Shown here: positions 3,440 through 64,000 of the stretch, in pieces
How positions within the stretch are numbered: the first letter of the stretch is position 1
How the letters are laid out: each line of letters opens with the position of its first letter
Assembly (NCBI GenBank): GCA_009760855.2
Contig: WPIO01000063.1
Coordinates: 741,501-805,500 of the forward strand
Source: Cristatella mucedo
Taxonomy: Eukaryota; Bryozoa; Phylactolaemata; Cristatellidae
Reading direction: 5' to 3'
DNA length: 64,000 nt
Notes under the pieces: generated by a model
What the model saw: only the letters and a program-made list of their open reading frames with translations
Databases searched by the model: none
Told to the model about the DNA's origin: nothing
Made by a program: the position numbers and the translations under genes

Positions 3440-4425
3440 ATCAAAATGCTGACCCTGTGCATGTCACCTCTTACCACGTTATTCATGTTGTTTATCAAGT
3501 ATGATACCACTCACAATTCGGTCGTATTTCCTTTGCAGAAAATGTAAAGCGCCTAGAAAGAGATTGAGTTCTCTGAGGGCGCTTTATTAAGTGTGTAGCA
3601 CAGCGAAGGCCTGACTCAGTTTTAGAGTGCATGAGAATTGCTCAGCAGGAAAACACCTCTGTTCTAGAGCAAGGGGACGCAGAGGTCGCTGAGGTGATTG
3701 ATATTGGCTGGGTTGTCAAGCCTATTGTCCCAGCTAGTTATATAATGATAGGGCGACGCTCGCTGGGAGCCTCTTCTTCATCTTCGGCTCCGTCTCGACG
3801 CCGTCGCCGGTAGTTGTCGGACTCGTTTCTCTGAAAGCGAGAGAGGAGGGCGGGCTGTTCGCCTGTGATCGAGGGACACGACGGGGCAGCGCCATGAGGA
3901 TTCGGTGAACGCCACCGAATACGGTCGTATAGCGCTCGAGCTCGCATTTTTGTGTTCCTTCTGTGTTTTGTGTGTCTGCGCATACACGTGGTCTCCGGTC
4001 AGAGTCTAGGCTCCGGTTCGGGCTCCTCGTCCTATTTGGGTCGTTCTCCACAATAGACGCTGGTAGCCTAAGTGAGGAGACGTATTCCCTCGCAAGAGTG
4101 CTTGTGCCATTGAGTGCATGTGAGGAATGTGGAGATAAAGCTGAGCTAGACGCGAAGCGACTGTGCGCTTGCGAATAAAGCTCACTACAATCTCCAATTT
4201 GTGTGTCTCGCTTTCCACTTCACGCCGCGGACTCACGACCCCTTTTAGAAACGATAAATAGGTCAGCGCCAGAAACGCTCGTTTGCGTGGCGGCCTGCTT
4301 ATTGCGTGTTGACGCGAACCGAACGGCATTAGGCACTAGGTTACGCCCCTTGGTAAGCGGCAGGTTAAGCCTACTCCGACGAGCCTTCGGCGTTACAAGT
4401 GTATTATTATTATTATAATGCTGCC
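3440..4425 (+). mobile_element. L2-type LINE 3' end, split by the solo LTR
   Basis: Plus-strand copy of the L2 terminal region: the end of the ORF-derived segment, then the conserved 3' stem-loop (arms 3546-3553 and 3578-3585) and the (TAT)n tail. The tail is broken at 3593 and continues at 4398-4420. No reverse-transcriptase part remains. Confidence 0.75.
3594..4397 (+). mobile_element. Solo LTR (804 bp) inserted in an L2 tail
   Basis: The segment starts TGTAGCACAGCG and ends CGGCGTTACA, an imperfect terminal inverted repeat of TG...CA type. It interrupts an L2 3' end: the tail reads gcgctttattaagtg up to 3593 and resumes as agtgtattattattatt from 4398. AGTG (3590-3593 and 4398-4401) is therefore a 4-bp target duplication, or AAGTG at 5 bp if the last A is shared. 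Inside are a TATA box (TATATAA, 3739-3745) and AATAAA (4174-4179), as expected for U3 and R. No gag-pol follows and no second LTR is seen, so this is a solo LTR left by recombination. Target-site length suits Ty3/gypsy or BEL/Pao. The family is not determined. Confidence 0.8.
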
Positions 4426-6018
4426 AAAAGATTTAGCAAGGCAAGCACAGAGATTCTTCATAAGTCTGCATTTTTGAGAAAGTCCTTATGCACTTGCAGC
4501 AAAGCTGAGTATGAAGAGTGATTAGTTCTGAAATCTGAGCCTCATTGTTCAACATGGGTAAAACAACTCCATCACTAACGTTCGCACTGTCATTGGCAAG
4601 CTGGACTTCCCGGCAGCTGGTCTTTGCCGATTAACTCGGCTATTGTATGCCGTCTGATCAAATAGCTAAATCAAAAAGAACATCTACGAGTGACATAACT
4701 GTCTGCAAAGTTTAGTGTTCAGAAAAGCGAGCATCTTTTGACCAATTCATGCAATAGCAGAAACATGTTAACTGCCTTGAAAGGGCTAACTTCCCAACAG
4801 ATCTCTGTGTGGAAAGCCTGCGGCCCTAGAAACGGTGGTTGCTGGGTCACTGACTCTTGTGAAGGGTTGCTGGTGTGCACATTTGAGCAGCCTACAAGTC
4901 GTGAGTACCTGCTGATGAGTCTCAATTCTCCTCTGTTCTCCTCCTGCCTTAATGATCTAGAGCATCGTCTGGCTTTGGTGGGCATACCAAAGGCTAGCAG
5001 TGGGTGCCGACGGCCCGTACAGGCGTCATCCTTAGCAGTCCAACTAGCTGCTTCTGCACCGGCCTTTTACTATGATCTAACAGCTTTTGCGGGTGCCTTA
5101 CACATACCCCTGTCCACATGCTGACCAGTCAGCCGCACGACGAAAGAAATAAATTGTGACTGCTAACGATAATGGCAGCCACGGGGGTTTAATGCCAGAC
5201 AGTGCGGCGCCACATTTTCTTTGAGCCGACGGCTGGAGACAGCGAAATGTGGAGCCGTGGATGAAGACCCCCCCCCCCTACTGAGGATAGAGCTGGCATT
5301 GGCTTGTCCACTATGCCTGGTAGAGCTGTAGGGTAGTGTCGCGGGATTCCGACTTCAAGCTGCAAACTCGATAAAATAGGTGCTGTTTGACTGCTCTCAA
5401 ATGACACGGTTTGTGCTGTTGATTGTTAATTGATTCTCTAGAAACAAAAGATGCAACTCCTGCTGCTTAACTTGATGATTTATTCTGTTGACACTTTTGC
5501 AGCAAGTTCTGCTGAGCTTTTGCTCAAACTAGTCGAAGTTGATTGTAGGCAAGAATCGCTTTGAACTTTTGATAGAACCTGCTGTTGAACCCAAAAATGA
5601 ACCTGCGTATGGAATATGGTAACATCTAAATTTAGTCTGAGAGCCTTTATCCACCAATCTTGAATAGCCAAGTGGCAATGATGCTGAAACCGATAATTCA
5701 AACTCGAGTCTTCCTTTACTATCACCTTGAGAACAAAGCTGTAAAAATGCAAAGCTAATGAAAGGCTGTTTAACACCGGTATGCTCACTCGGTTAAGAAT
5801 AGCTTCAATTTTTCCTCTAGCTAACATTATTGTCTAAGGTGTAGAACACTTTTATTGGAACTGCAGTGTTTGTATTCATAAAGCCCGATAGGTTTTACCT
5901 TATGGAATTTTGTTTGGTGCTTCTGCAAAGTGCTTTTTAAACTCAGCAGGAGATTTGACTAGAGTAGATTGACACGTGAGACTAGCCACTGTCGTCGCTG
6001 CATGGCGAGGTTTACTTG
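4426..6018. other. Intergenic; two unrecognised open frames
   Basis: A 128-codon frame on plus (4738-5124) and a 115-codon frame on minus (5480-5827) have ordinary amino-acid composition but no motif I know, no neighbouring exon that extends them, and no splice-site pattern I trust. Chance frames or exons of an unknown gene remain possible. A C8-9 run lies near 5270. Confidence 0.35.
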
Positions 6019-6179
6019 GTTACTGTCCCAGGGTAAGATGCTTCAGGACTCAGTCACGGGCTCAAGTCCTAGAGCAGGCAATCTTTTATTTCCCATCGAA
6101 AGTTGGTGTGATAGACACTAAGGCTGTTGTTCTTCCGCTATATAAATGAGGCTGTTGGATTAGCCTACCTTTACTTTGA
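6019..6179 (+). mobile_element. tRNA-headed SINE, second tail class, diverged
   Basis: Degenerate plus-strand copy: gggtaagatgcttcag, B-box region cacgggctcaagtcc, cttttatttccca, then the second tail type (aaggctgttgttcttccgct, tataaatgaggctgttg, gattagcctacctttac). The tail shows no similarity to the L2 3' end. Confidence 0.7.
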
Positions 6180-6242
6180 TCAATGAGCCTCGCCACGAGG
6201 CTGCGTCTTTGTCGTTCCAGGCTAGGGTGTGTCTAAGATATT

Positions 6243-7175
6243 TGCAAACCGTCCTAAGAGAACTAAATCAGGCACTTTACATATGTTGAGGAGGACCACT
6301 TCAATTGATTAGTGATAGCAGGCCGTGTCAGCACGCATAAGCTCACAACTGACAATCCACACGGAGAGCAAATGCTGCAAGGAATAAATAGGTGAGCTAT
6401 TAGCCTTTTGAAATGTCAAGTCTGAGGGTGCCGTGACGTCAGTTGAGAATGAATTCTATGGTTTTGGAGCATATGAACTGAAAGCACGGTCTTCGAAGGA
6501 TTTGAGGTTGGTTAAACGCACAAATTCACGACTTGAGTCACAGGTATAGGTGGTAAGTAGCAAAGCCTGATCGGTTGGCCGTAACAAGAGAATTGACTTA
6601 AAGGTAAAGGTCAGTGGCAGGACCTTGAAGTAGATATGCAGTATGATCGGGAGGCAATGCAGGTCGGTGAGAAGTCGTTTGATGTGGCAATTGCGGTATT
6701 CACGACAGACAAGCCTAGCTGCTGAGTTTCGCCATCTGTAAGAAACGTATTTCGCGGCAGGGAGACGTTCGAAAAGTGACTTATAAGTCTTGATGCGATG
6801 TCACAAATGCATAGACCAACCGCAGGCTCCGAAGCCCATATTTTTGCAATGGTACATGGCTAGATACGTAGGCAGATTTGAGTGTGAATATAATGAAATC
6901 ATCTAGTGAAACATCACTCTGGAACAGGGCTCCCAGAATTCTTACAGATGTAACTGGAGATAATATTGGCGGACCCAATTTGGAGGGCTCTTCTTTCCAA
7001 TTTCTTCGGAACACTAAATATGTTCGTAACTAGTAAAAAAGTTCTATCGTCACTGAAATTGAGAAAGCTTGATGCCATTTAAGTGCGAATGCGTGCCGAT
7101 GGGGAAAGTTTTGACCTGCTAGAAGGGAGAGAGGGATCAAAGCAATGGCAACTCGGCGTCAGGATTCGTTAATTA
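6243..7175 (-). mobile_element. L2-type LINE, decayed RT C-terminal half
   Basis: Diverged minus-strand copy without a (TAA)n tail. The order of blocks matches the 60.0-61.5 kb copy: stem-loop remnant, cgtgtcagcacgcataagct, ORF end, then RT thumb and connection. The frame near 6781-7014 contains VRILGALFQSDVSLDDFI and VYAFVTSHQDL, typical of the L2/CR1 RT C-terminal part. It ends just upstream of where the YADD motif should lie. Confidence 0.75.
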
Positions 7176-7364
7176 GGCAGGTAGCCGAGACGAAGCAAAA
7201 GATGTGGTAAGCTGCGCCATCTCTGTTAGTTCCTGCATTGTTTCGAGCTGCTCCAGTGGCATGCTCTCTCTCAAGCTCTGCAGTGCACCACTCTAGCAGG
7301 CGAAATTACGAATATAACGCGACGGCTGCTCTTAAAGTGTGCCTACGGAATCCTCTTTCGACAT

Positions 7365-7465
7365 GCACAAAACCCCCTAATGATATAAATATTCTGGACG
7401 ACGCTCTTAATCGGTTTGCTGTGACCGAGACTTAGTTGAAATTGACCAACTGTCCGAGTAACCGG
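7365..7465 (+). mobile_element. LINE endonuclease-domain fragment
   Basis: A short stretch reading ILDDALNRFAVTET followed by a stop resembles the early part of the apurinic-type endonuclease of L2/CR1 ORF2 (typically ...LDILALTETWL). It matches, at the DNA level, a minus-strand fragment at 8200-8300. It is a pseudogene fragment. Confidence 0.5.
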
Positions 7466-8084
7466 CACCACCTAGACACACGTCTCTTTCAACCATACTC
7501 CGAGGTTAATAAAATCTGTCAGTGGTATAGACATTTCGCTCGTTCCTCCCTTAATTTCAAGCCATTTGTAGTGCTTTCGTAGTCTCTAGTGCTCAGTCCC
7601 TCCAACAGCAAGCTGCCTCTGTCTGGTGGCAATAATTATGGCCCCGCCCAATGTACCAATAGGCTTTATTTCAGATTGTTCTATCTTATTTTAATTTGGA
7701 AATTTACGAGCCACATGATGCAGGTGATTACTACTTATTTTGGCAATGCAGCCAACCCCTTTTATTCTGAATTTTCCCACATTGACTGATTTTTATTCTC
7801 AGGCTCATGTACATGGGCCCCACTCGTAGCTAAGATTATACACCCGAACAAATGCTCTTCCGCGATTGCTTACCTGTCAACTCAAATTATTACCAAATGC
7901 TGTACATCGGACCACATTCGGATCCTATTCAGTCTGTATTCAATATCCTCTTCGGTAACGAACGTCGTCTGCAAATAGAACCTCAAGACCCTTGACATTA
8001 CGAGGTCCTAAAAATATATTCCTCGCTCCTTGTGCCGTATCCTCCATTCTAAATGTCCCACTAATGGAGTGCGTCAACGTGACA
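7466..8084. other. No gene recognised, between two LINE endonuclease relics
   Basis: AT-richer sequence with no repeat that I can assign. It could be further decayed LINE sequence, given its flanks. Confidence 0.4.
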
Positions 8085-8310
8085 CTAGCCAGTGTTCTTG
8101 ACTAGTTTGCTTCGAGGGGACTGCCGACTGCTCGAAACCGCGGAAGGTGCTCCAATACTGGTTTGTATTGGTCTCTCGGAATGGCAGAAAGAGAAACTTG
8201 TCAGGGTTTTGACGTCAGTTAAGGCCGAGCAATCAGTCGATTTCAGCCTGGTCTCGGTCAATGCAAACGGGTCTAGGGCGTCGTCAAGAATCATGTTTCA
8301 TATTGGAGGT
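8085..8310 (-). mobile_element. LINE endonuclease-domain fragment, opposite orientation
   Basis: The minus-strand frame reads ILDDALDPFALTET and continues for about 50 residues without a stop. It is the same LINE endonuclease segment as at 7365-7465 but inverted relative to it. LTET contains the expected Glu of the endonuclease active-site region. Without the rest of the domain this is a relic. Confidence 0.5.
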
Positions 8311-8789
8311 TTTTTCTACGACCAACCCGTTTTCCATAGATACACTTTTAAGTGTGACCACCTAGGTTTTAGCCTGCCAGAGGACCTCCAAGTGGGAGCG
8401 ATTTACTGAATTTATCGCGGTGTTTGAGGGAGAGCGTGCTTGGTGTTTCGAAGCAATATGAGTCCAATATGTGGGAAATATTGGAGGTTCGTGCCACAAG
8501 CCACTCTGTCGTTTTGTCGGGGCTTCCCGTGGGAGATGCTCAATTCACGAACCAGAGTGGCAGAAGCAGAGGCAAGCGTTTGAATGGCAATTAGGGAACG
8601 ATAATGGGCACGCACGATCGTAGCGAATAGTGCGGTCAGTAAGAGCTGGCGAAGCTAGTTGCAGCTGGCAGAAGTGCGGGATGGTGGAGTGTGGTGGGAG
8701 TACTTGCCGACTGGACGAGGGTCATTTAGATATCTGTAAGCTTGTAATTTCTGATGTGCTACGTTAAAAAAGGCGCTGCAACAGCTTAA

Positions 8790-8922
8790 GCATAATTCAT
8801 TTTTATAGTGCCCAAAGAGAACTTAATCTCTATTCAGGCGCTTCACGTGTGCCACGGGGCTCGAGCCCGCGACCTCGGCCAGAACTTGGTCGGGGCGAGC
8901 ACCTTAACCACACTGAAATCCG
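8790..8922 (-). mobile_element. tRNA-headed SINE, L2-tail class
   Basis: Read on the minus strand: ggttaaggtgctcg (tRNA A-box side), gaggtcgcgggctcgagccc (B-box region, GGCTCGAGCCC), then a tail gcgcctgaatagagattaag ... gggcactata, which matches the L2 3' stem-loop. Polymerase III type promoter elements are implied. There is no coding capacity. Confidence 0.75.
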
Positions 8923-10129
8923 TAGCCCGAGAGATTACGCTCGTTACGGCGATAGTCTTGCCTGCGCGTGACAAATACCCGCGATACTGGCTCTACGAAG
9001 CTCAGATAATAAGTCGTATGGGCCGCGCCAATACACGCCGGTATTCCGACTATAGGTGAGCATGGCCGCCAGCAATACAACGCACCCACCCTATACCTTG
9101 ATATAAAAAATCCGTGCTGTTTTCCGAGTCCAGTCTGTTTCATAACCATAGAGAGGTACAAGTGAATTACTGCTCTAGGGCCCAGGGTAGGACACATTGA
9201 CTATATACTCGTAAAAAGTCAAAGGAAGTTTCACTGTTCCACTACAATGCAAGCCCGAACGGCCGCTGACCTAGTTGTAAGCCTAACCTAGCTGGTGAGC
9301 CTGGCCTATTGTAGCGCCAGGACTCCGTACCGCGCGACCTGGGTCGACGAGTGCTCGAATCCTACCTTCCGACTCTTTCTGATTGCGACGTTTCTATATG
9401 TGAGCCGTTCGCTCGGCTTTGACAGCACTAAGCTCCCGAACTTCTCCAGCCACATTCTGTCTCATAGTTTGTCGTATGCGACACTTACGTTGAGTTTTGG
9501 CAGTGTTAGCTTTCGCCCGTGAAATATTATGGAAAACTCCAAATTCGCTTTGGAAGGTTGCCTGAGTGTTCTGTGATCTAGCTGGTGAGCCAGCCTCACT
9601 AACTACCAAACGTAAGAGCTCTTAGCTGATATAACAAAATTTTTATATTAAGAAAAATTAATACGAATTTCATAACTATATTTAATAATTTTCTTATACA
9701 ACGGATACAAATCTATTTTTATGGAGTTTATTCGTCAGCGTCAGGTAGCGAATTATCGTTGAGTTTCGGACGTTCTGATCATGTTAAAATTATATTATCA
9801 TCTGTATAGTAATGAATTGGAGAGTCACGAGCAGATTCTATTCATGTGTGCTCATAGCTAACCAACGGCAGGCGCAACACAACTTCCGGTCGATAGCGCT
9901 CACCCTGGCAGCTCTCCAATACTCCATCGCGGTCAAGCGCCAGACGCCACTTCGGGTGACAGTAACGGGTCGTAGTGCAGCGAGCGGAAGATGCAAGAAT
10001 GCCATGGCCACCCTTTGAACAACCCTTTTAAAGTTCGTAGTCCTGGGCAGTGTTGGCTTCTCCATTTGCCATTTCAGCTGCTACATCGTGCATCTGGAGC
10101 TAAATGCTACCCTGGTTTGGGCCAGAGAT
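8923..10129. other. No gene recognised
   Basis: Includes an AT-rich stretch (9620-9810). Short frames only (97 residues at 8904-9197 on minus overlaps the SINE edge). No element assigned. Confidence 0.5.
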
Positions 10130-10300
10130 TACGGTGCTAGCCATTGACGACCGAGGACAAGGTGCTCGTCTTTGTCGACCAAGGTCAAAGTCCTTGTCTT
10201 TGACGACCGAAGTCGTGGGCTCGAGCCCTGTGGCCTATATGAAGTGCGTGAATAGAGATTCAGTTCTCCTCTTAGGGCACTATGCAATTGAATTATTTTT
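10130..10300 (+). mobile_element. tRNA-headed SINE, L2-tail class, with triplicated head segment
   Basis: Plus-strand copy with B box gggctcgagccc and an L2-like tail whose arms AGTGC (10243-10247) and GCACT (10277-10281) are complementary. The segment before the B box is repeated three times with a 28-bp period (gacgaccgag at 10146, gtcgaccaag at 10174, gacgaccgaa at 10202), an internal amplification of the head. Confidence 0.75.
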
Positions 10301-12029
10301 TCTTTTTCACCGGTCTCGTTAGTCGGACCTGTACCCTGATCCGATACTGAAGGTTAGCATGGTAACCTCGTTCCAAGCATTCTTTAAGCATTCATTTTCC
10401 TATCGCCATATCTCTGAGTACTCTGGCGGCGGTAATGAGATCCTAACACTTGCAGCCCGCACTTTCGAGCGGCCCTGAACCAGCTGGCAGGAATGGAGCT
10501 TCCCACAATTAGGCTCCCTGAAATGTCACGAGATCAACATTGCCGTACCCGTGAGGCGCAAGCTCACCGCAGCTCGCGAGCTTCGGCCATGCAAAAAAAG
10601 CTTGGTGTGCAAGGGCCCCCTGCTAGCGTGGCGAAATGACGGCTCTTACAGGCGAGCAGCAGTTGCTGGCTGGCATTAGAACAGCGAGCTGATGCAAATG
10701 GATAGCGCCTGCAAATGGCGACTCGTCGTTGTGCGCTCCCGCACTGCAGACGATTGAAGAAGAGCCGCGGACCAGCAGCACCCAGTGAAGCAGGTAATGC
10801 AGTCCCGGTCTTCTGAATTTGACGGTCATCCATGCGCTCAGCTGGACATGGTAATCGAACCTTGACTAAGCATTCAGCAAGGATCGGTCTGTAATGCCTC
10901 AGGTAGCTCTACTGACTCACGGTGCGGTACCTGCTGTCCTAGAGAGGACTGGATCGCTTCTGCTCGGCGCCATGCCGTGTAACCCTGCCGATGTAATGGT
11001 GTCCCGCCGATTTGAGACTGCACTCAGGCGCATGTAACATGGATTCGCCCGGCTCACTTGAGTTAACGGGCCTCCGGATGGGTTTTTCTGATAAAGCTGA
11101 TGCCTCATTTGTTGATACTTTGGCTGGGCAAGCGTAGCTTGCTGGCGATTAAGCGAACAGTACGAAAACGACAATCGTGACACGGCGTATAATGAGAAGC
11201 TAGGCTCAGGACCGGCCGTGGTTTTTCCGTCTGCCAAACTTCACTTGGCTGATCGATTAGTATAGAAAGTGTCGTATGTGCCATTGGCATAGTGCCCATA
11301 GCTGAAAGTCCTACGCGATAGCCAGCTGTTGTACGTTATTAATCGCAAACCGTAAACTCAAGACCTTGAACCCTCAACCATTAGCTCTAAAAACACTAAA
11401 CTTTCAACTCGAAATCCTGGAGGCCCAAAATTCTAAACTCTGAAACAAAACCAAAAAGATATAAAAACGTGTTTAAACATATGAAAAAAAATTATTTGAG
11501 ATGCGTAAACACCGACAAAATCATAAGGCTTGTTCTTACTATTGGCACTTGACCATGATTGGATAGACATACTTATAACTATTTATGTAAAAACTTATTG
11601 ACTTACGTAGGCGTATTAATTGTTCTGATCCGGAGTTCTCAGCCAGTTGGCTGAACGTTTTCTTAAAACCATACAGCAACATTGTCTCTTTCTTCTGCCA
11701 GAAATCTTGGCCCGAGGGTACTGCTTTTCTTGGAACCGCAATTTTGGGGTCTGCCAATTGAAGGTGCCACTTTAAAAGTGGCGGAAACAGCAGCCCGATT
11801 TACTGTATATCTATGTTGTATACGGCGGTGCCTGCGACTAAACCTGAACCGATGCATTTCTTGCGGACGCCCTTTCCAAACTCACAAATTTCCACATGCG
11901 TACCTGTGCCAGGGCAGCTATGCGCTGACCTCTAGCCCGTCGACCTCTGGTGGCCACTAGCAGCAGCCTGTCTGCCAGCCAATACTTGAGCTTGACGTGC
12001 ATACTCGTGGTCGAGATGCAGTCTGCAGC
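10301..12029. other. No gene recognised
   Basis: Frames up to 106 residues (10917-11237, minus) without motifs. A short run of near-repeats around 11340-11430 (ctcaagaccttgaa, ctcaaccatt, ctcgaaatcctgg). No mobile element assigned. Confidence 0.45.
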
Positions 12030-12196: not shown

Positions 12197-12737
12197 TATC
12201 ATTAATTACTCGTCTGTCAATCCTGACGACTGAGTCAGGTGACCAACTTGGAGGTCGGCTCTGCCTGTCAAGATGGCGTGGATCGTGCTAAGAAACTGAG
12301 GCTGACCTTCTTGCTTCGAGTTACGTACAAGTGACCAGTTGGCATAGCTGTCCAATGTTGCTGGGTGAGGGGGTTCCTTCAGACAGCCGGCGTCCCGAGA
12401 TGCTATGCAGTCAGATTGTTGCAACACATTCTCTCAGGCAGTAAGGAGTCGTTAGGCGTGCTCGCGTGGTGCCATTGATGGCGGTCCTGAAGAAACCGAA
12501 GGTAGAAGGAAGCATGTGAAATTGAGCGACGGAGCGCTGAGATAGTCCAAATACTTCTACAGATTGGAACAGCGCGAGATAGGATGGCCGCCCCGAGTTG
12601 CCATTCAAGACCAGATTTGAACCAGGCGTTTAGATTTGCCGAGTGTAGTCATGTGTAGAGGAGTGAGTAGTGCTAGTAGACACCTGAGGGGCAAGTAGCT
12701 GAGATCGGTGGGCCAAGCACGACCGTGGCAGGACGTA

Positions 12738-13210
12738 TAATAATAATAATAATGCACTTGATAAAGCGCCCTCAGAGAACTCAATCTCTCTCTAGGCGCT
12801 TTACATTTGCTGCAAAGGGAAATGCAATTGAATGGTGAGTAAAATCATGCTTGACAAACAAACAAAATGAATAACATGGTTAGGGGTGACATGCACAGGG
12901 TCAGTATGCAAATGTGGTCAGTGGCAGCATGCGCAGTGTCAGCACGCATAAGCACACGAAGGACGAATCACAGGGACCCACTAAATGCTGTCCTAAATAG
13001 GTGTGTTTTTAAATTCTTTTTAAATGTGGTCAGGTCAGGGGATGTTCTGACGCAGGTCGGGAGGAAGTTCCAGGCTTTGGGAACATGCGAACTAAATGCA
13101 CGGTCTCCAAAGGATTTGAGGTTTGCACGAGGTATTTGTAGACTGTTGGATTCCGAAAAGCGGGCGGTACGATGCTTGGCCTGATGGGGGCAGTAGATCT
13201 GAGAGATAAC
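12738..13210 (-). mobile_element. L2-type LINE 3' end with ORF C-terminus
   Basis: One of the cleanest L2 3' ends. On the plus strand it starts with (TAA)n, then the stem-loop with arms 12763-12770 and 12795-12802. The minus-strand frame reads FGDRAFSSHVPKAWNFLP, then LTTFKKNLKTHLF and FSGSL before the stop. This is the usual C-terminus of L2/CR1 ORF2. It is 5'-truncated. Confidence 0.85.
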
Positions 13211-15498: not shown

Positions 15499-15575
15499 AG
15501 CAGATGTAAAGTGCTTAGAAAGAGAATGAGTTGTCTGAGGGCGCTATATAAATGTATTATTATTATTGTTATTAA
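15499..15575 (+). mobile_element. L2-type LINE 3' tail fragment
   Basis: Only the terminal stem-loop (arms 15509-15514 and about 15541-15546, with one G-U pair) and the (TAT)n tail remain, plus-strand orientation. It could equally be the tail of a SINE of the L2-tail class whose head is lost. Confidence 0.65.
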
Positions 15576-18943: not shown

Positions 18944-19079
18944 AGGGTGCTCGCCCGATCAAGGTCAAGGTAAATGTATTTGATGGCCGTTGGCTCGAGT
19001 CCTGTGGCATTTGCGAAGTGCTTGAATAAAGATTAAGTTATTTTAGGGCGCTACACAAATGAATTGTATTATTTTATTT
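18944..19079 (+). mobile_element. tRNA-headed SINE, L2-tail class
   Basis: Plus-strand copy: gggtgctcgcccgatcaagg, B-box region ttggctcgagtcc, then an L2-like tail (aagtgcttgaataaagatta ... agggcgct) with arms at 19016-19021 and 19048-19052 pairing through one G-U, and an AT-rich end. It abuts the gypsy-like remnant. Confidence 0.72.
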
Positions 19080-19216
19080 TAAAGCGCAGACTTATTAAAG
19101 CTTCGATGCTGCGCCATATTTGACGGCGTTAAGCCGCATGCGTTTTTTGTCGAAGGTGTGTGCTGATGCCATGCGCTGGCGTCCCAAGCGACTCAAGACG
19201 TCGCGAAATTCATACC

Positions 19217-19850: not shown

Positions 19851-22315
19851 CCGGCGGTGAACATAAACTCATGTGGCTTAGTAGTAGTGAGCCGCTACTT
19901 CTTGATACCGAACGATGCTCAACGATTGATCGAGATTCAGCTGGCAGTCTCCGACAGGAGCTTTTCTCTTTCGTTGTCCGAAAGAATATCGATTACCACC
20001 CGATCGTGCAGAACTTCAAATCTCCCCTCAGTGTGATAGTTGCACGACTCAATGAGACCGAGTAGAGCAGATCAAAATGAGTCAAAGGATCCCGATTCGC
20101 GTTTTCGGCGGAGGTGGAATACAAACCGTTCGTATAACTTACTCTATTTATGAAGGAAATGTAAATCTGAAAATCTCTGCAGCAATTTTCTTAGTCTCCA
20201 CTCTCTACTGTCGACGCGCCTCAGTAACAAATATTGTATATTTACAGAGTGTCTCTGTCCATACCCGTTAGCAGTATGGCTGCTATTGTGGGTCCATCCT
20301 TATCGGAATTCAGAAGCAATCATATTATCATAGAAGTGTTTCCCCAATTCGTCCAACCCGGAGCAGTAATTATAGACTGCATCGAAAATGCTCCGGACGG
20401 GCGCAGCCATTCCACTGACATCACGAGAGCGATAGCTCGTATCCGACTTCTGACAGCATGCGGCACGAAAGCCGCCATGATGAATGGTATATTTACAGCG
20501 AGTCCGCCTAAAGTGGGTCGCGCCTGCGCATGGCATCGTTGGGATTTACTAGGGTGGGGAGGGAGGGAGAGCGCATACTGTCCGCCGTCGTATAGCTAAT
20601 TTAGTGGTCGCTGCTCTCTATGCGCTCGACGCTATTTGACCATCGCCGCAGACCCACTAGAGAATGACAAAACTGAACGAACGACTTGCGTCCGGCGACG
20701 TCGCGCAGGCCCTAGGTCCGCACACCGTGCGTGAACAGATCGAGCGGTTGCAGCAAAAGTCACGCGTTCGCGCCCTTGACCGAGAGCAAGCATAGCAAGC
20801 TCCTCCTTCAGACGAGTGTCCTCGCCGCGGCCTCGCCTCGTCCTCGACACTCTGCGGGCGAGCGGCCGCTCGCCGGGCGTCTGGGCGCGCGACGCGTGCA
20901 ACGACGCGCGCGCCCGCTCTCTCTCTCTCTCGTCGCGGCGCGCCTCGCGTCATTGTAAAAAAGCTCATCGCTCGACACTTGGTCAATGCAGATCCGAGTT
21001 TCTCCGCTTCCACGCCTTCCACGCTCGCCCGGCGTCCCGATCGGCGGTCGCGCATTAATGCGAGCAGAAATAAATAAAGCTCGCGTGTGGCGCTGCTCTG
21101 CAACGACAGCTCAAAATGGCGCTCAAGCCGCTGCCTGCGCGGCTTGCTGCGGCATCGGTCGAATTGAGCCGAACTCGGTCTCGGCACTACTCTGCCTCCG
21201 CTGCCGCTCACTCAGTAGATCGCTAAGCGATATTCGCGGTGGCAACGCATAGCGCGCTCGCGACCAGGGCGCTAGCTCGCTCCGGGTCATTCGGGTTCGC
21301 TGGCTCGCTCGCATCCGTTCGAGCGTCGGCCGGCACAATTGCCGGTGTCCCGTGTTTCCCCTTCGGGCTCTCGTACCGGCCCTCACGATGCCTATCTTTA
21401 TTTCCCCAGTGGCTCGTTTCTCGGGTCGGTCGTCTGCACTGCTGCGTGCGACGGGCGGCCGCGCGCGGCGCCGCCGTCGCTGCTCGAAAGCGCTCCATTT
21501 CAGTCGCCGCCGCTGCCGCCGCCACGGAGACGGCTCGCCCGTCGCTGACTGCGCGACGCCAGCCGCCGGGACTCTCTACGCCGGAGGAACCACTCTCGCC
21601 GCGCGACTCCTTGGCCTCGACCCTCGCGCCTGCGGACGCTGTAGCCGCTCCCGCGCTTGGTGGGATTTTTCGCGCTCGCTAACGACCCGCGCGCCAGCGA
21701 GCGACCGGCTCGAGGTTTCGTATCGCGTCGACGCTAAGCGACGGCGACGACGACAAGGACGACGACGACAGCTCTTTCTGACTCCGAAGCACCGGCGATC
21801 CGCGCGTCGCCGTAAAGAGAACGCCGCCGCAAGGCTTGAACCTCCGCGAAGGAAGAGGAGGAAAAGAAGTGTCGCCCCACTTTCCGCATTCGGACGCCGT
21901 TACGGGCTCGTCGATGCGGCGTACTGGGCGTCGTTATATACGCGCCCAGTCCACGGCATGCAGGCGCGGTGTGCGAAACCGATGCTGGTCGCATTAGTGT
22001 CATCGCCTCTAGCTCGCTTTTCGCGACCGGCGTGTTCGTACTGAGGCTGGACGATGGTCCGCCGCCGCCGCCGCCGCCGCTCTCGGAGCCTCAGATAGTG
22101 CCACCCTGTGCTCCGGAGGGCTCACCGCCGCCGCCGCCGCTTGCGCCGTCTCGCCCTTGCAGAGCAGCGCTGCGTTGAGCTGTTTTTTCTTCTAGACTAC
22201 GAAGCAGCAGTCTGTCAGCTAGCCGCAGCTCCGCCTACTAACGCCTACTTCTCTTTCCTTTGGCCGAGGCAAAACCGCGCAGATGGTTTGCTATAATTTT
22301 AAGACCAATTAGACA
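19851..22315. other. No gene recognised
   Basis: 19.85-20.6 kb has mixed composition; 20.6-22.3 kb is CpG-dense with short CCG runs (22058-22080, 22124-22140). Frames up to 230 residues are Arg-rich shadows. No element assigned. Confidence 0.4.
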
Positions 22316-22450
22316 TTTGAGTAGCGCCCAAAGAGAACTAAACCTCTGTCTGGGTACTTTGCGGGAAACAAAGCCTGTCAATTGGTCGACCGTAGCGTGC
22401 GCAGTGTCAGCTCGCAGAAGCGTGAAAAAAGACAATTCAGACGCGAATGC
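22316..22450 (-). mobile_element. L2-type LINE 3' region fragment
   Basis: Minus-strand remnant with a recognisable gcgcccaaagagaactaaac stem-loop half and the cagtgtcagctcgcagaagc block. It lacks the (TAA)n tail and is strongly diverged towards CpG-rich sequence. Confidence 0.55.
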
Positions 22451-22597: not shown

Positions 22598-23026
22598 GCT
22601 TCTCTATTCGAGTCTGGCTACACGTTCCTGCAGCAAGGAACCTCAAATCCTTAGGAGATTGTGCATTTAGCTCGTATGCTCCTAAAGCCTGGAACTCACT
22701 CCCGACTTGTGTAACGACATCCCCTGACTTAACCGCATTCAAAAAGAAATTAAAAACGCACCTATTTAAGACAGCATTTAGTGGGTCCCTGTGATTCATC
22801 CTTTATGTGCTAATGCGTGCTGACACTGTGCATGCTGCCACTAACCACACTTGCATGCTGACCCTGTGCATGTCACCTCTAACCATGTTATTCATGTTGC
22901 TAATCAAGCACGATTCCACCCACCATTCAATCGTGTTTCCTTTGCAGCAAATGTAAAGCGCTTAGAAAGAGATTGAGTTCTCTGTGGGTGCTTTATCAAG
23001 TGTATTATTATTATTATTATTAGGAT
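22598..23026 (+). mobile_element. L2-type LINE 3' end with ORF C-terminus
   Basis: Plus-strand copy. The translated C-terminus reads PKAWNSLPTCV, LTAFKKKLKTHLF, FSGSL and stop. Then follow the 3' UTR block (catgctgaccctgtgcatgt), the stem-loop and a (TAT)n tail at 23003-23022. It is the only sizeable plus-strand L2 end in the CpG-rich zone. Confidence 0.85.
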
Positions 23027-30949: not shown

Positions 30950-31065
30950 TGATAATAATAATAATAATAATAGCAGTAATAACAACAACAACACATTTGC
31001 CTAGCGCTCTCGGAGAACATCTAAATTTCGTTCTGAGCATTTTACGTTTGCGGTAGATAAAAAAT
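30950..31065 (-). mobile_element. L2-type LINE 3' tail fragment
   Basis: A (TAA)n/(CAA)n run followed by a diverged stem-loop (agcgctctcggagaac ... tgagcattttacgtttgc). It is 5'-truncated to about 100 bp and lies 345 bp from the preceding L2 fragment in the same orientation, so the two could be pieces of one insertion. Confidence 0.65.
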
Positions 31066-46236: not shown

Positions 46237-46335
46237 AGATACAGCAAATGTATAGTGCCTAGAATGAGATCGAGTTGTCTGAGGGCACTATATCAAATGT
46301 ATTTCTATAATTATAATTAATGTATTATATTATAT
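46237..46335 (+). mobile_element. L2-type LINE (or L2-tailed SINE) 3' tail
   Basis: Plus-strand tail with fully complementary arms ATAGTGCC (46252-46259) and GGCACTAT (46284-46291), followed by an AT-rich tail. Both arms differ from the majority AAAGCGCC/GGCGCTTT in a compensating way. Nothing upstream is recognisable. Confidence 0.65.
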
Positions 46336-50597: not shown

Positions 50598-51252
50598 GGC
50601 TCTCAATTCGAGCTGCCCGTAATCTGAGCTCGGTCGCTCGGCATGAATGGCGCCCAGCGGGCGGCAGCCATTTCAGGCTGCCCCGAGTCCACTAATGACG
50701 GCAGCGCGGCGGTCGGCAGTTCTAATCTCATCTTGGGCAGCCTTGCGCCCAGACAGGGTCGGGTTCCCGCAAGCAGCGGCTTCCTTATCTCTTGGGCGCA
50801 GCATCGTTTGCGGCAGTGGACGAGGCCCATTTGCCGAAGAGTTCTTGAAAGCAAACCTCGCAAGGGACGCCTCTCCGGACGCAGTTGCTGCGTTGCGATC
50901 CCGATATCCGGGCGTCGAGCGCGCTGTTTAGAACGCGCCTGAAGTAGAGATTCCATTTAAAATACTCACTTGATCGTGCCACTCGTGAGGTCCTCCGCGC
51001 CGCGACTCGTGTCTGCAGAGCTGTCCCAGAGCTGCTCGGTCAGCGGGCAGCAAGCGGCAGTCGTCAGTTGGCTTGAAGAAGGGGCAGCCGCCCTCTTTTG
51101 GGCTGATCAGTCATCACAGGAGGCCAGCCGCGATCAGGCCCAAGATGCACCGCACTGCACGGCTGTGTGCAGTGCAGTGCGAGCTCCGCGCCGCGCAGCG
51201 CGTCGACGTCGCACGCCACTCTGCATCTAAGAATATGTATTATTACATACGA

Positions 51253-51370
51253 TACATGTGTATAGCGCCCTCATAGAACTTACTCTCAATCCAGGCGCTT
51301 TACGTATGCCGCTCGAACCCGCCATCTTGGCCACTAAAGTCGAGTACGTCACCCCTGGACCAAACCAGGG
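51253..51370 (-). mobile_element. tRNA-headed SINE, L2-tail class
   Basis: Minus-strand copy. On the plus strand the tail comes first (gcgccctcatagaac ... ccaggcgctttacg), then the B-box complement (gctcgaacccgcc) and a degenerate head ending near ctggaccaaaccagg. It is more diverged than the other copies. Confidence 0.65.
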
Positions 51371-53741
51371 AAAGGTCTCCAAAGGCTAGATGAGAGCCGT
51401 AGTTGAATCGCACGCTGAACTAAAGCTAAATACAATCACCCGTTTAGAAATGCTAAAGCTGGGAAACTAAAGTAGGCTAAAAGAACAAAAATATAAAAAC
51501 AAAAGCCTGCCCTGTCTTTTCTATGCTTTTAGCTGTTACAGATACCGATGTGCTAATATGTACTGAAACTCTAAAGACATAACCATCGCTATGTCTGTAC
51601 TTTTACCTGCCGAAGAAGGAAGTGATCGTACTTTCCATTTGATGGCTCACCAATCCGGAAATGCAGTCAGTCACAATTATGCTTGAACCTACTTTTCCGG
51701 GACTTACTGCCTGCAGCAGAATGACGGTTTTTGTGAGTATGCTCTGATTTAAGAGATGTGCTACAGTATGCCGTTGGCTGTAGTGTACAATTTAGTTCGC
51801 AGAGTGGTCATGATTCCGCGTTTCAGTACTGAATGACCTGTCAATCAGCCAAACGGAGTTTTGCATCTCCTTGCTGACTGCAATTACCCCAAGAAGTTTG
51901 CACAGGAGCATTTTTCATTTATGAGCAAAGCTGCCTCAGACGGCTGTTTGTAGCTGCAGCTAATGGCAGCTAAATGCAATCCATTTCAGCGGCAATCTTG
52001 CGGCAAGGACATGCACTCCCCTCTTCAAGCTGCCAGGGGTTTTATCGCAAGAGAGAAGCAATTTCTTACGTCGCCGGTACCAGCCAGCGTAATCAGGAAA
52101 TGCAACTACTGCGTACGTCTCGTAGCTCATAAGCCAGACAAGCATCTCTTTGAAATTTTCTATGCCTAGACAGTCATCTTACGGAAGCGCTACAACTTTA
52201 AAAATGAGTCGCCGAAAGTCAAGGGTTAGATACTCCCGAGCCACGCCCCTGCCAGGGCGTATTCGACTCGCCTTTCTTTTTTTCCTCCGTCTCTTTCACC
52301 ACACGGAAAAAGTCTTTGAATTAAAGGTGGCCTCATGGCTCTAAGGCGCCACATAAAGGCGATTCATATTCAACCAAATTTACGCCTTAGAGCAGCTGAC
52401 TCTTTGTGAAACGAGCCGTTCTTTAACACATTTCTTCACCTTAGGTAGGTTCGAGGCACTGAGTTCCATCTCCTTAACAGCGTGCTGTATATATAAAGGA
52501 AGCTCGTGACTCTTGATTGACGTCAGCTACATATGCCTTCTAAAACGTGAGTTGTACTTGGTGTGCCTACGCGTGCTGACACTTCACGTACCCGTTGTCC
52601 CGAAGCAATTGCCGGGCTTCCTTTCCAGCTTATTTAAAGCACCCATAAAAAAGACTTAGTTTTCCTCCAGTGGTGCTATTTAAATGTCTTAATTATTTAT
52701 ATTTGCATTATTAGCTTAATCGTTAATCAGCAGTGTACTTCTCTCGCTCTTTGCCTGCCTCAAACAGTTCAAGCCGTTTTGGATTTCTAAACCATCGTAC
52801 CATCCGGAAGTAAAACTAGAGGGGGCCAAACCTTGAGCTTTCCGCTCTTTCAAATGTCAGAGAAGCTGAGAAGCCTAAACGGGGCGGGTCTTGAGGTGCC
52901 ATCGAATGTGCATGCATCAAAGTCAATCCGAAGGCTCAGCCTGGTAGCCCCCTTTCGCCCCATTAGCCCCTTACGTTGAGCTTTCGGTGCCGTCGAGAAA
53001 CAAAACCAGCGCCATTCACGGCACTGCCCTCACTTTTTTGTAACTGGCGAGTAGCCATTGGTCGGATGGACCGGATTGCAAGTCAACTGCAGGCATTAGA
53101 TAGGACTAAACCCCACTATCTTGATGCTATCGGAGACAGAATCAGGCCAACCCGCAGCTTCCAACGCGGCGGCGACAGCAGCAGCAGCAGCAGAAGCAGG
53201 GTCTATTTAGCCGACTGCCACGTAGTCAATGCCGGCTGCTGCCACGTAGTCGATGCCGGCTGCCACGGATCCCGATGAGCTCCACAAGTGGCCGAGGGTA
53301 GTCTTAACTAGGCTTTCAATGACTGCCGATGAATGCCTCACACAACTGCTCACGCTCTCATAAGTGTACGCCTTGTTTGAGGAGCTGCTGCTTCGCGTAC
53401 AGCCTACTCTGCTGCTGTCCATATTCACTAGCCTTCGGCGAGCTCCTGCAAAAGCGAGCATTTGCTCTCATTCTTCGCTAACGGAGAGCTAGCGCTCGGA
53501 GGTGGCTCGACCGTAACTTGGCCGCACGCTCAGGTGCACACATAAGCGTATCTTGCTCAAGGCTGTTCACACTTTCTCTCAATAGCGAAGCGAGAGTGCT
53601 CGTAAGTAGACGGCCAACGAAGACTCTTTCGGTTTTCCTTGTAGATAGGCACGCCCCGAAATTTGCTTAATTGCCCACGTGCAGTGGAACTAGAGTCAAA
53701 ATTCAAGATTCGTCCAACAGAGAACTGCTCTTTCAATCGGC
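51371..53741. other. No gene recognised
   Basis: AT-balanced, with no element assigned. A small duplication occurs at 53217-53268 (ctgccacgtagtc[ag]atgccgg twice). Confidence 0.5.
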
Positions 53742-53815
53742 TTATAATAATAATAATAATACACTTGATACAGCGCCCTCAGATAACTCTCTCTAGGCGC
53801 TTTACATTTGCTCCT
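53742..53815 (-). mobile_element. L2-type LINE 3' tail fragment
   Basis: (TAA)n run, then the stem-loop region with a small internal deletion (cctcagataactctctctagg), ending at the tttgct block. It is truncated right after the tail, so only about 70 bp remain. Confidence 0.75.
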
Positions 53816-57282: not shown

Positions 57283-57487
<205 letters not shown>

Positions 57488-57770: not shown

Positions 57771-57888
57771 ATGCACCGGGATTTTGTTGGTGCAGAATGG
57801 CGATGGCGGCTGAGCGTTGCCACGTCTCCCCTGCAGCAGCTACAGCTGCGGCGAGAGGCAACAGCCTTGGACTGCAGCCGAAGCTGCC

Positions 57889-58827: not shown

Positions 58828-58998
<171 letters not shown>

Positions 58999-59671: not shown

Positions 59672-59845
59672 CATCAGCCGTGATGGCACACTAGGTAAGG
59701 CGGTTGCTTTCACGACATCGGTCGCGAGGTCGTGGGTTTGATTCCTGCAGTGGGCGATTCTTTATTGCCACTGCAAGCTATGATGATAGCCGTAAAGGCT
59801 CTTCTGTCGCTATACAAAAAGAGGCTGTTTAATCAGCTAGGATTT
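59672..59845 (+). mobile_element. tRNA-headed SINE, second tail class, most complete head
   Basis: Plus-strand copy with the clearest tRNA-like 5' part: tggcacactaggtaagg resembles a polymerase III A box, and gtcgtgggtttgattcc the B box. The middle is cgattctttattgccactgc. The tail is ccgtaaaggctcttctgtcg, ending gctgtttaatcagc. Confidence 0.8.
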
Positions 59846-60017
59846 ATTTATTCTAACAGGGTCGTACAGGCACCAAAAAGCGTGTACATGCACCAACAGG
59901 CTCGTTCAGGCACAAATAGGCCGTGCAAGCGCAAACAGGCTCGTACAAGCACCAATAGGCTCGTACATGCTCTCATGTTCCTAGTACTTTGTTTTTAGAG
60001 GTTTGTACTAGTCAAAT

Positions 60018-61495
60018 AATAATTATAATAATAATAATAATAACACACTTGATAAAGCACACTCAGAGAACTCAATCTCTTTCTTGGTGCTTTACGTTTG
60101 CTGCTAAGGAAACGCGATGGAATGGTTAGTGGTAGCATGCTCGATCAAGAACAGTAATAACATGGTTAGGGGTGACATGCACAGGGTCAGCATATATAAG
60201 CACATAAAGATCTATTCACAGGACCAACTAAATGATGGGATAAATAGGTTCGTTTTTAATTTCTTTTTAAATGTGGTCAAGTCAGGGGATGTTTCAGGCT
60301 TTAGGAGCACACGAACTAAGTGTACAGTCTCCAAAGGACTTAAGGTTTGTGCGAGGTATGGGTAAACAGATTCCGAAAAGCTGTTGATACTATGCTTAGC
60401 CTGGTGGGGTAGTAAATCTGCTAAACAGGCTGAAGCCAAAGAATGGAGGGATCTAAAAATGAGGGACAAAACCTTGAATTAGATGCGTTGCTTGACTGGG
60501 AGCCAGTGCAGGTTGGCGAGAAGTGGTGTGATGTGACAATTGAGATGCTCACGACAGACAGGCCTAGCTTCAGAGTTTTGCACCAGCTGTAAGTGCCTGA
60601 TTGCACAGGCCGGTAGAACAGCCAGCCGTGAGTTACAGAAGTCAAGATGGGATGTCACGAATACATAGACCAACTTAGATGCGGTATCCCTGTCTAAACA
60701 AGCCCGAATTTTAGCAATCTTATGTAGCTGGACGTGGGCAGATTTGCTTGTGGAGCTGATGCGGTCGTCTAATGAAAAGTCACTTTGGACATGACAACTA
60801 GATTTTGAGCAGATTAAGTAGGAGATATGATGGCAGAGCCGATGTTGAGCGTTAGCCTTCCAAATTTCTGAATCACACTTGGTTTGCCCAAGACTAGTAA
60901 TTTGGTTTGATCATCATTCAATTTAAGAACATTTGCTGCCATCCATATGCGAATGTCATCAATACATGCAGCAAAGGATTTGAGAGACTTCGGCGTGCTG
61001 GAGAGCTGGGAGGGATCAAAGCAAAGGTACAACTGAGTGTCATCCGCATAGAAGTGAAAGCCAAGATTGTGCTTGGCAACACATCAGCAAGAGGAAGAGT
61101 ATAAACCGTGAAAAGAACCAGACCTAGCACGGACCCCTGAGGTACCCCATATTTCAGAGGTACCTCGGATGATCTTTTTCCATTCACATCAATACTCTGG
61201 AGTCTCCCACTGAGATAGGACCTGAACCATCGCAGAGCAGTACTAGTGATGCCCAGGTGAGATGAGAGGCGCTCTAGAAGAACTTGGTGATCGATAGTAT
61301 CAAAAGCGGCCAAAAGATCGAGCAAAACAAGCAGAGACACTTTACTCATGTCTGCATTCCTAAGTAGGTCGTTTTACACCCAAAGCAATGCTGACTCCGT
61401 GGAGTGATTAGGGCTAAAGCCAGACTTGAACTTACTGGCAAGGTTTGAAGTTAATCTTAGAAAGGCAGGCTTGGCAGTAGTTGCTCAAATTTTCT
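60018..61495 (-). mobile_element. L2-type LINE, longest copy, with frameshifted reverse transcriptase
   Basis: Minus-strand copy of about 1.48 kb. It starts with a (TAA)n tail and a stem-loop with arms AAAGCAC/GTGCTTT (60054-60060 and 60087-60093). Upstream come the ORF C-terminus, thumb (WLPVKQRI near 60.5 kb) and palm of the RT. RT motif A (AAFDTID) is at about 61288-61308, motif B (GVPQGSVLG) at 61122-61148 and the catalytic YADD at 61039-61050. YADD is in a different frame from motifs A and B, and the finger region (HSTESALLWV) carries an in-frame stop, so the copy is dead. The endonuclease is missing (5' truncation near 61495). Confidence 0.88.
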
Positions 61496-63244
61496 CGGTC
61501 TAGTGAACTTGGTGATAAATAAAAAGAAAGCTCAGTTGTCGACAACTATTGCATCGATGAAAGGAGAATAGCGGCAACTCAGTTGCGAAGTTGTCCATCT
61601 GCCTGAGCAGATTGTATAGGTTCATGGGACAGTCAACACAAGCTATGCAATGTGAGGAGATTCGAAGACATCTATCTACAGAGTTTTGAGACTTTACATT
61701 TTGATAGCTACTCGGCAATGTGGGCTCAATGATCAAATTACGAATTAATGCACACGGATGCATGCCTCAGTATTTCAAGCTTTCTAAACTGCACAGTAGC
61801 CTCATGGACCACCAAACCTTCAGAAAAGCAGGATATGAAAGATATTTTCTGCACGTGACAACACAGAGAAATCTGTTCATTATTCACTGCTAATCCACAT
61901 AATGGGAATGAATATGTAGGTTGATGAGTGCATAGCATATGGGAGGTCACGAAGATATTATGAATTTGTGACGAGGTAAAGACAATGGTATTCCTGCGTC
62001 TTAGAGACGGTGTAGTTGGCAAAGCAATGTGCCTGCGTGTCCAATTATATCTCAGCGTGTTCTAACATACATCGGCACGAGTGGCCGAACATAAAAGCAG
62101 CTATTGAGAGCCCAATAGTCTTTCGGTTTTCCGAATCTATTGACGGGTTCACAAAATATATATTTGACGTTCATAGGATTTCTACGTTCATTTATTTGGT
62201 ATACTTCTCCACCACTTTGGCTACAGCAGGTGCTTACTTTTCTATACTCTTCATTGCAGAAGGTGAGAAATTCAAGGTGGGTGGCGGCCATCGCGCATAA
62301 CCTCACTGCGTCGTGCTATCGGCCACCGCACAAGCGATCTTGTCACCTTGATGCCCACCCTGTCACACGCTTCTCCGACTGCTGACCAACCTGGCAGCCT
62401 CGTGCTCGTCATTAGACCTTCTGAAACCTTCTGAAACCGTGGTTCGGTCCACGCACCCAGGTAAATAATTAGATTAGTGCCGGAAGTATTAGTGTGAGAA
62501 TGCGTTAACCATTTCTTGAGAAATTCAAGAGAGCAGGCAGATAAACTGCAGCCGGCATCTGAAACTTGGTATTAAGTCTCTTATATACTAATGCTACTAC
62601 CACCTCGCCGCCCCCCCCCCCCCCGCGCGAGAGAGCGAAAGGCCGTCTGCATGTTACTTGCTGGCGAGCAATCAAACGCAGCAACGCCGCAGAACCTGCA
62701 TTTGCTCTTCACGGATCACGTGAGATCAAAGCATCCGCGCATAGAAAAAAGGCAGATGGCCGATAGCCGAGAGCTGAAGAAGCAGAGGAAGCCGACCGAG
62801 GGACCGGCTCTGTCTGCGTGCTATCGCACACGATAGCAACAAAGCTCGATAGAAAGCAAGGGACCCTTTGCTTCAATCATGGGACACAAGAGCATGGACC
62901 GAATATGGAAAGAATAACAAGAGGCAGAGAAGAAGAAACAGGAGACATCGAACTTTTCAAATTAAGAAGCCGACCGAAACCTCCGAATCAGGCGTACGTG
63001 CATTGGCCAAGGACTTCGCACTTTCAGTACGATCGTATGCGCGCCCGACTAAATTACGTGTCCTCTGATCTTATGCTCAATATCAACAAAGAATTCATCT
63101 CTGGACCATTAACACCATTGAAAGATCATAGAGATATCATTCAAAGTCCTCTTTATCAAACTGACGCAAGGGGATAAATATCCATCGTCACTTTCTACCG
63201 ACCTAAGAAAGGTCACTAATAACAGTAAAAAAAATAGCTCAATA
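61496..63244. other. No gene recognised
   Basis: AT-balanced. A 119-codon frame on plus (62818-63177) and 84-94 codon frames on both strands lack known motifs. A run of C (about 62612-62624) is present. Sequence just before 61496 may include more decayed LINE. Confidence 0.4.
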
Positions 63245-64000
63245 AGAATAATAATAATAATAATGAGAAGAAGAAGAATACATTTGCATAGTGCCGTCAA
63301 AGAACTTAATCTCTTTCTAAGCACTTAACATTCGCTGTGAAGAAGTATGGTCAAATGGTTAGTGTCAACATGCACAATGTCAAAAAGCATAATATGTTTA
63401 GAGGTAACCTGAACGTTCTCAACATGTAAATATGGTTAATGTAATGTATCTCCGTCTGTAACTCCACAAAGTCATAAAGACTATGTGGGTGTTACACAGG
63501 AGAATTTTGTATAGCGCACTCATAGCCTAAGCGGCTTTCGGTACGCATTCGGTAACCAACAGATATCGTCTCACGCAACAAAGAGAAAGTGGGAAGCACA
63601 GCAGAGTCAGGAGAGCAGTTGAGGTAGTGAGTAGCACGGAAGTAGCAGCTCAGGACCGCTGAAGAGAGTGAGCCATAGTCGGCAGCAGGAGAGTAGTTGT
63701 CGTTGCGTAAGAATAGTGGAACCGAGTTCCACAGTCTAGGACTAGCATGCACAGTCTCAGCGTTCACAAGAATACACAGGACAAAACCTAAGGACCCACT
63801 AAATGCTGCGAGATAAAAGTAAGGGCTTTTTAGCTTCTTTTTAAATCCCGTCAAATCAGGCGTGATGTGATATCAGTCTGGAGTGAGTTACGGGCTTTGG
63901 GAGCATATAAACTGCAGGCGAGGTCTCCAAACGATTGGATGTTGGTTCGAGGCGCAGCTAAGTAACTGGCGTAACAAAAGCAGGAGGTACGTTGCCTAGC
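63245..64000 (-). mobile_element. L2-type LINE 3' end interrupted by another LINE, running off the window
   Basis: A (TAA)n tail and stem-loop (arms 63290-63294 and 63321-63325) are followed by L2 3' sequence to about 63437. The L2 resumes at about 63745 (catgcacagtctcagc) and continues through the ORF C-terminus (TGFKKKLKS, FSGSL) to the window edge. The 300 bp between belong to a different LINE family. The copy probably extends beyond 64000. Confidence 0.75.
63438..63744 (-). mobile_element. Second LINE family, 3' end nested in an L2
   Basis: The minus-strand frame reads SPRLWNSVPLFLR and continues about 65 residues with a C-terminus unlike L2, then a short 3' UTR ending in a TTACA-type tail (acattacatta on the minus strand). 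The same sequence recurs at 48826-49040, so it is a repeat family. PRLWNSVPLFLR is the common motif near the C-terminus of CR1/L2/Rex-type ORF2, so it is a non-LTR element of a related clade. It sits inside the L2 of 63245-64000 and is therefore younger than that copy. Confidence 0.65.

Follow-up and report, generated by a model that had tools for sequence, protein, structure and literature searches.

Does a hairpin at the 3′ end of a repetitive element in the bryozoan Cristatella mucedo serve as the site at which a reverse transcriptase (RT) recognizes its template, and is this site shared with a second, short element? The question is raised by a 64-kb stretch of contig WPIO01000063.1 (positions 741,501 to 805,500; hereafter the window), which holds related 3′ tails on copies of an L2-type long interspersed nuclear element (LINE) and on a short interspersed nuclear element (SINE), here called SINE A. 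The window is the whole evidence base, and the tail copies in it are few and related. An initial annotation had named seven pairs of complementary arms in these tails; every one of them is present, three (at 12763, 60054, and 63290) on the minus strand. As argued below, the hairpin very probably acts as the 3′ signal by which the RNA of a “stringent” L2-type LINE is recognized, also serving SINE A.

The best copies read GTAAAGCGCC, TAGAA, AGAGA, TTGAGT, TCTCT, GAG, and GGCGCTTTAT, which corresponds to an outer stem of ∼10 bp, an asymmetric internal loop, an inner stem of 5 bp, and a loop of 6 nt; a (TTA)n repeat follows shortly 3′ of the hairpin. In the L2 tail at 3536..3594 (plus strand), for example, the outer stem pairs 3544–3553 with 3578–3587, the inner stem pairs 3559–3563 with 3570–3574, and the loop spans 3564–3569 (minimum free energy, −22.4). 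The middle of roughly 24 nt initially described between the arms is, thus, present but not plain, as it contains the second stem AGAGA/TCTCT. In published L2 and R1 tails, a bulge or an asymmetric internal loop is reported to lie 4–6 bp from the loop (PMC5135761). The stem-loop found here is of this stringent type, because in young intact copies the inner stem of 5 bp is followed by an internal loop; several older copies are decayed in this respect. When 16 copies were folded and compared with dinucleotide shuffles, the mean z of the minimum free energy was −3.1, and the shuffle P was below 0.05 in 13.

Tails of the same kind were found on either strand, and their outer stems differ. The tail at 1348..1421 (minus; identified by pattern, as nhmmer seed, and by folding) carries a C-T mismatch, and that at 22945..23022 (plus; same three lines of evidence) a G-U pair. 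At 60025..60103 (minus; nhmmer seed and fold), A-U replaces G-C (AAAGCAC/GTGCTTT), and in the older tail at 63261..63338 (minus; nhmmer seed and fold), U-A replaces C-G and an A-A mismatch is present. The tail at 12737..12812 (minus) ends in (TTA)n and terminates a longer L2 copy that extends to at least 13205. That such tails belong to a LINE follows from 60025–61373, where an RT domain (RVT_1, PF00078; E 4.5e-9 in 60921–61373) lies upstream of the tail 60025–60103 on the same strand; the decayed 3′-untranslated region (3′-UTR) and ORF2 at 60104..61373 (minus) are taken as part of this copy. Five other pieces of open reading frame (ORF) that were scanned (60482–60910, 60215–60478, 30152–30532, 6459–6800, and 46373–46972) gave no RT match. 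The LINE is one that we take to be L2, on C-terminal motifs of ORF2 plus the RVT_1 match.

SINE A is represented by four copies, at 8784..8925 (minus; tail at 8784–8851), 10176..10306 (plus), 18956..19080 (plus; with a G-U-tolerant outer stem), and 51245..51333 (minus; with a decayed head), the 5′ limits of the first two being approximate. All four tails match the L2 profile (nhmmer E 3.9e-9, 5.9e-5, 0.0055, and 2.2e-9, respectively), which bears out the initial claim that LINE and SINE have the hairpin in common. The heads, irrespective of the copy, show no resemblance to the L2 3′-UTR (P 0.13 to 0.8) and join the tail directly; from its sequence, SINE A appears to have neither body nor core domain. 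The heads contain motifs resembling RNA polymerase III (Pol III) boxes. A B-box-like GGCTCGAGYCC occurs in three of the four (the fourth head is cut short), the A box was judged by eye only, and a B-box pattern with one mismatch allowed matched the window nine times versus 3.4 expected, four of the nine matches lying in SINE copies. At the copy at 10176–10306, a 28-bp tandem duplication of head sequence was noted (10133–10210).

Conservation of pairing was counted in an alignment of 20 rows, which also served for the CpG tally below. Paired cells made up 85.6%, compared with 26–54% when the partners were slid by one to three columns. Among 500 shuffles, the observed values were reached by 5 for paired cells, 5 for cells changed on both sides, 10 for the covariation score, 52 for pairs with a double change, and 114 for further pair types. 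To a null that preserves the tree and the substitutions of each column, 17 rows were submitted, the fragments X6240, X18407, and X52640 being dropped here and kept in the 20-row counts. Pairing reached 86% versus 65% under this null (P 0.0007; 0.001 in an earlier run), and the covariation score gave P 0.02 (earlier run, 0.014).

How much of this has to be ascribed to selection depends on two CpGs that lie opposite each other in columns 17–18 and 52–53 (pairs C17–G53 and G18–C52). It could be argued that the likeness of the tails is plain homology, a SINE head having inserted into the 3′ end of an L2 copy, and that the paired changes are products of CpG deamination without selection. C→T/G→A changes are indeed enriched at consensus CpG cells (11/58 versus 27/386 at other C/G, ∼2.7-fold; five copies, hairpin CpGs included), of the 10 cells altered on both sides 6 fall on the two facing CpGs, and double CpG changes occur in 6 of the 20 copies. 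The arms ATAGTGCC/GGCACTAT, AAAGCAC/GTGCTTT, and AGTGC/GCACT all include TG/CA or CA/TG, and the swaps of C-G for U-A and of G-C for A-U are what deaminated CpGs yield. Deamination on both arms will, about every second time, happen to restore a pair (U-A or A-U), so that the double changes carry less weight; the two CpG pairs alone do not stand out from the tree-based null (P 0.20 for pairing, 0.06 for the score, and 0.07 for double changes). Two observations nevertheless make such a neutral origin unlikely. The outer stem deprived of both CpG pairs is still better paired than the tree-based null (P 0.0027; score, 0.033; double changes, 0.37). In addition, the CpG quartet was unchanged in 6 of the 20 rows and changed in 14 (six paired doubles, six G-U singles, one C-A mismatch in S8790, and one mixed pair-breaker in X22305), and both pairs, Watson–Crick or G-U, were kept in 12 of the 14, one pair being broken in S8790 and X22305 each. 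Because independence predicts that only about half would remain paired, this favors selection, which is indicative only since the rows share ancestry and the corresponding binomial probabilities treat non-independent copies (0.0017 for 12/13, with X22305 omitted as not being a simple CpG product; 0.0065, calculated by hand, for 12/14). From the initial proposal that compensating change reveals a selected RNA hairpin, the excess of pairing over the tree-based null can, thus, be retained; the double changes, mostly at CpG, are weaker support than proposed.

Several further observations weigh against a selected hairpin that recruits the enzyme to a SINE. The number of cells with a double change lies within the tree-based null (P 0.14 in both runs), and the inner stem alone gave P 0.07 for pairing, 0.51 for the covariation score, and 0.70 for double changes. 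Within the outer stem, columns 14 and 56 (the former holding the central A of AAAGC) are unpaired in 10 of 17 copies; A faces A in eight, namely all four SINE copies and four older L2-like ones. Three of the 16 folded copies (L30980, the SINE S10235, and X22305; one of the three called L2) fold no better than their shuffles. Finally, SINE A had initially been described as tRNA-headed, and tRNA models do not recognize its head. No Rfam tRNA match with E up to 5 was obtained in the window or in one isolated head each of SINE A and SINE B. At gathering score, Rfam reported no family in the window, and the 11 weaker rows (E up to 5) correspond to none of these repeats. The sole ARAGORN call in the window (40486–40575) is no SINE, and three of the four head sequences were accepted by ARAGORN only after its threshold had been relaxed, a setting at which 70 of 500 shuffles passed as well.

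If the hairpin is accepted as a feature in its own right, it might still act elsewhere than in reverse transcription, for instance as a cruciform, a 3′ processing signal, or a terminator. Inverted repeats fold in DNA as well, which is why such a role has to be considered; however, the G-U pairs at the CpG pairs (UG in five copies, GU in two) suit RNA over DNA, and the position beside the 3′ repeat together with the sharing between LINE and SINE fits RT recognition, so that a function at the DNA or transcript level is very improbable. The same low probability is given to a SINE A tail that arose by convergence or came from a different LINE family whose hairpin is similar. The SINE tail consensus is only 64–83% identical to single L2-type tails of the window, G in its column 22 is found in no L2-type row, and A in column 24 otherwise only in X52640. 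On the other hand, old-L2 states at columns 56, 59, 60, and 63 are common to the SINE tail and several older L2 tails, and the loop and 3′ flank of the SINE tail align with L2 throughout. These column states and the range of identities suggest that the SINE A tail probably branched off an older line of L2 and does not stem from the window's young L2.

Recognition of the hairpin by the LINE's own enzyme, thus preferred, would proceed along lines established for zebrafish L2. There, deletion or swap of the stem-loop is reported to abolish retrotransposition, the stem can be exchanged as long as it remains paired, the loop is specific, and the stem-loop is bound by the part of ORF2 that lies between endonuclease and RT (PMC4176376). 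In the RT-bearing copy at 60025–61373, this part is absent. In C. mucedo, the LINE RNA would end in the bipartite stem-loop followed by a short (TTA)n; by analogy with the published work on L2, the ORF2 protein would bind the stem-loop and start target-primed reverse transcription at the repeat. SINE A could be regarded as an old form of the tail to which a Pol III-type head has been joined directly, and the SINE RNA would be copied by the same enzyme. We infer, in other words, that SINE A may be mobilized by the L2 RT via the hairpin, as the initial annotation had proposed. Selection acting on the active source elements would keep the stem paired, and inserted copies would decay neutrally.

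The inventory of tails was obtained with two models. The nhmmer seed consisted of six L2 3′ ends (1348, 3536, 12737, 22945, 60025, and 63261), which match by construction. Beyond these, nhmmer detected tails at 1899, 53740, 15499, 46242, 51245, 8784, 30967, 22300, and 10241 (E 2.8e-24 to 5.9e-5), and weaker ones at 6240 (E 2e-4), 19016 (0.0055), 52611 (0.013), and 18407 (0.061). A further decayed tail at ∼375–435 was detected by a fuzzy pattern. The covariance model, built from 15 tails (X22305 among them, but neither L30980 nor the other weak X rows), recovered its own 15 copies (all E ≤ 8.1e-10) and matched four outside the model: at 30987 (E 9e-5; the old minus-strand tail 30967..31053, outer stem partly decayed, perhaps solo, z −0.3), 1590 (0.008; the decayed minus-strand tail 1590..1648, probably of the old L2 copy 1689–1852 plus 2014–2544), 52631 (0.011; the decayed L2-like plus-strand tail 52611..52703), and 6232 (0.075; the decayed minus-strand L2 tail 6240..6319, adjoining L2 ORF homology at 6306–7091). 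The old L2-like tail at 22300..22365 (minus; nhmmer E 2e-6) is part of the model. In total, 16 clear and ∼4 decayed copies resulted; the remaining five rows, with E from 0.6 to 2.3, represent decayed copies, echoes of known copies on the wrong strand, or chance. Outside the window, an 18-base tail pattern gave one match in a viral contig collection, the surroundings of which have no other likeness to the tail; a longer pattern matched neither viral nor genome contig collections, and four strings of the tail sequence had no match in the literature text searched.

Five tails have no clear L2 3′-UTR upstream (upstream similarity: 1899, P 0.16; 15499, 0.63; 46242, 0.02; 53740, 0.215; 30967, 1.0). 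Solo status is firm for two of them: 1899..1973 (minus), which sits within an older L2 ORF copy whose flanks align as one once the tail is removed, and 53740..53812 (minus; nhmmer, fold), which has no detectable L2 3′-UTR upstream and a partly deleted inner stem. It is probable for 15499..15574 (plus; nhmmer) and for 46242..46319 (plus), the tail with the ATAGTGCC/GGCACTAT double change, for which the upstream likeness to the L2 3′-UTR is borderline, and uncertain for 30967. In eight copies, the L2 3′-UTR is supported: 12737 and 22945 served as references, and 1348, 3536, 60025, 63261, 385, and 1590 exceeded 200 of 200 shuffles. No significant upstream similarity to it was observed for 6240, 52640, 22305, and 18407.

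Just 5′ of the hairpin, the L2 3′-UTR contains a block resembling a 3′ splice site (CTCAC, pyrimidine tract, CAG; 3509..3538, plus). Its last three nucleotides are YAG in all eight supported copies, and CTNAY occurs at −28 to −30 in seven of them. A strong tract with a branch-like motif is found at only 77 of the 3923 YAG sites in the window, and the pyrimidine content of the block exceeds that of other positions (P 0.009; seven divergent copies, four of which lack supported upstream similarity). As all L2 copies share descent, the block is not independent evidence of function. Judged by eye, homology before the AG end extends for the last five bases in 1899, two in 15499, three in 46242, two in 53740, and zero to three in 30967, and that of SINE A begins right after AG; the 5′ ends of the solo tails, like the junction in SINE A, lie within ∼5 nt of AG. 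In a simulation of uniform truncation, which assumes 16 ends and takes all five tails as solo and independent, the probability of five ends falling within 6 nt was 0.0006 when truncation spanned 400 nt and 0.025 when it spanned 150 nt.

This coincidence could mean that L2 provides, with its tail, a mobile 3′ exon or, in a milder form, that reverse transcription often stops at the pyrimidine block and thereby fixes the boundary; both are unlikely. An RNA joined by splicing to an L2 tail already inserted would acquire the RT handle in one step, which, if true, would be a general route of birth for new SINEs and tail-only copies. Should genome data confirm the coincidence, it would matter as a route of tail gain besides template switching, by which SINEs are said commonly to obtain new tails (PMC5729268); for SVA, splicing to a retroelement has been reported (PMC6139936), and no splice acceptor before a LINE tail is described among the literature matches listed. 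A simple spliced-RNA origin is disfavored for the 1899 copy, the insert starting ∼5 nt upstream of the AG end with old L2 on both sides and no captured exon. The sequences upstream of 15499 and 46242 look alike but were not taken as one family (score of 22, near the 95% null of 21). Candidate target-site duplications of the five tails were exact 5–7-nt matches in three, none adjacent to both ends.

Other features of the window are as follows. SINE B has a head like that of SINE A, a different body of its own, and no L2 hairpin tail; its six copies lie at 12044–12199, 15657–15825, 47658–47810, 57033–57190, and 59694–59847 (plus) and at 24435–24517 (minus), and the B-box-like motif GGTTCGAGTCC is exact in one of the six heads and in the head consensus. 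A 209-bp repeat occurs at 48833–49041 and 63437–63645 (91% identical), the latter copy sitting between L2 matches at 63252–63436 and 63744–63954. A coding exon for a GATA zinc finger (39402–40292, minus; PF00320, E 3.5e-16) adjoins a Gln-rich ORF (40481–41341), and a (CGG)n tract of ∼72 copies spans 42905–43121. The G+C content of the window is 0.55. The observed/expected ratio of CpG is 0.75–0.96 in the repeat-rich ends (1–12000 and 52001–64000), with 0.75–0.81 in the outermost 8 kb at each end, and 1.1–1.4 in the GC-rich middle (16001–48000; maximum, 1.38).

Taken together, the pair is one more, unexceptional instance of the known stringent partnership. It adds a LINE and an apparently body-less SINE with a common recognition hairpin, which aids repeat annotation in this animal, and it lends support to the generalization that a terminal stem-loop is what L2-type enzymes read, while altering little in the picture of the mechanism. 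A survey lists 58 SINEs with a LINE tail and L2 tails on SINEs of mammals, frog, sea urchin, sea anemone, and others (PMC3747384, Table 1). The system resembles UnaL2/UnaSINE of eel and ZfL2-1/ZfL2-2 of zebrafish, which are described as L2-type LINEs whose terminal stem-loop is interrupted, close to the loop, by a bulge or an internal loop, the UnaL2 tail being common to SINEs, as here; the likeness to UnaL2 and ZfL2 is one of architecture, which in C. mucedo is read from the sequence. With MIR/L2, SINE2-8_SP/L2-1_SP, Nve-Nin-DC-SINE-1/L2-22_NV, and the V-SINEs, whose tails are of L2 or CR1 type, SINE A shares a LINE-derived tail and, putatively, a Pol III-type head (PMC3747384); unlike these pairs, it apparently has no body or core domain. 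TguSINE1/PittSINE of passerine birds likewise join a head to the tail hairpin of a LINE, CR1-X, with a terminal microsatellite, but the partner is a CR1, and their head is known to derive from tRNA (PMC5729268). As for the hairpin itself, a precedent comes from the tail hairpins of SINE2 and L1 in maize and sorghum, for which compensatory stem changes are reported as evidence (PMC3747384), although in that case the LINE belongs to the L1 clade and the hosts are plants.

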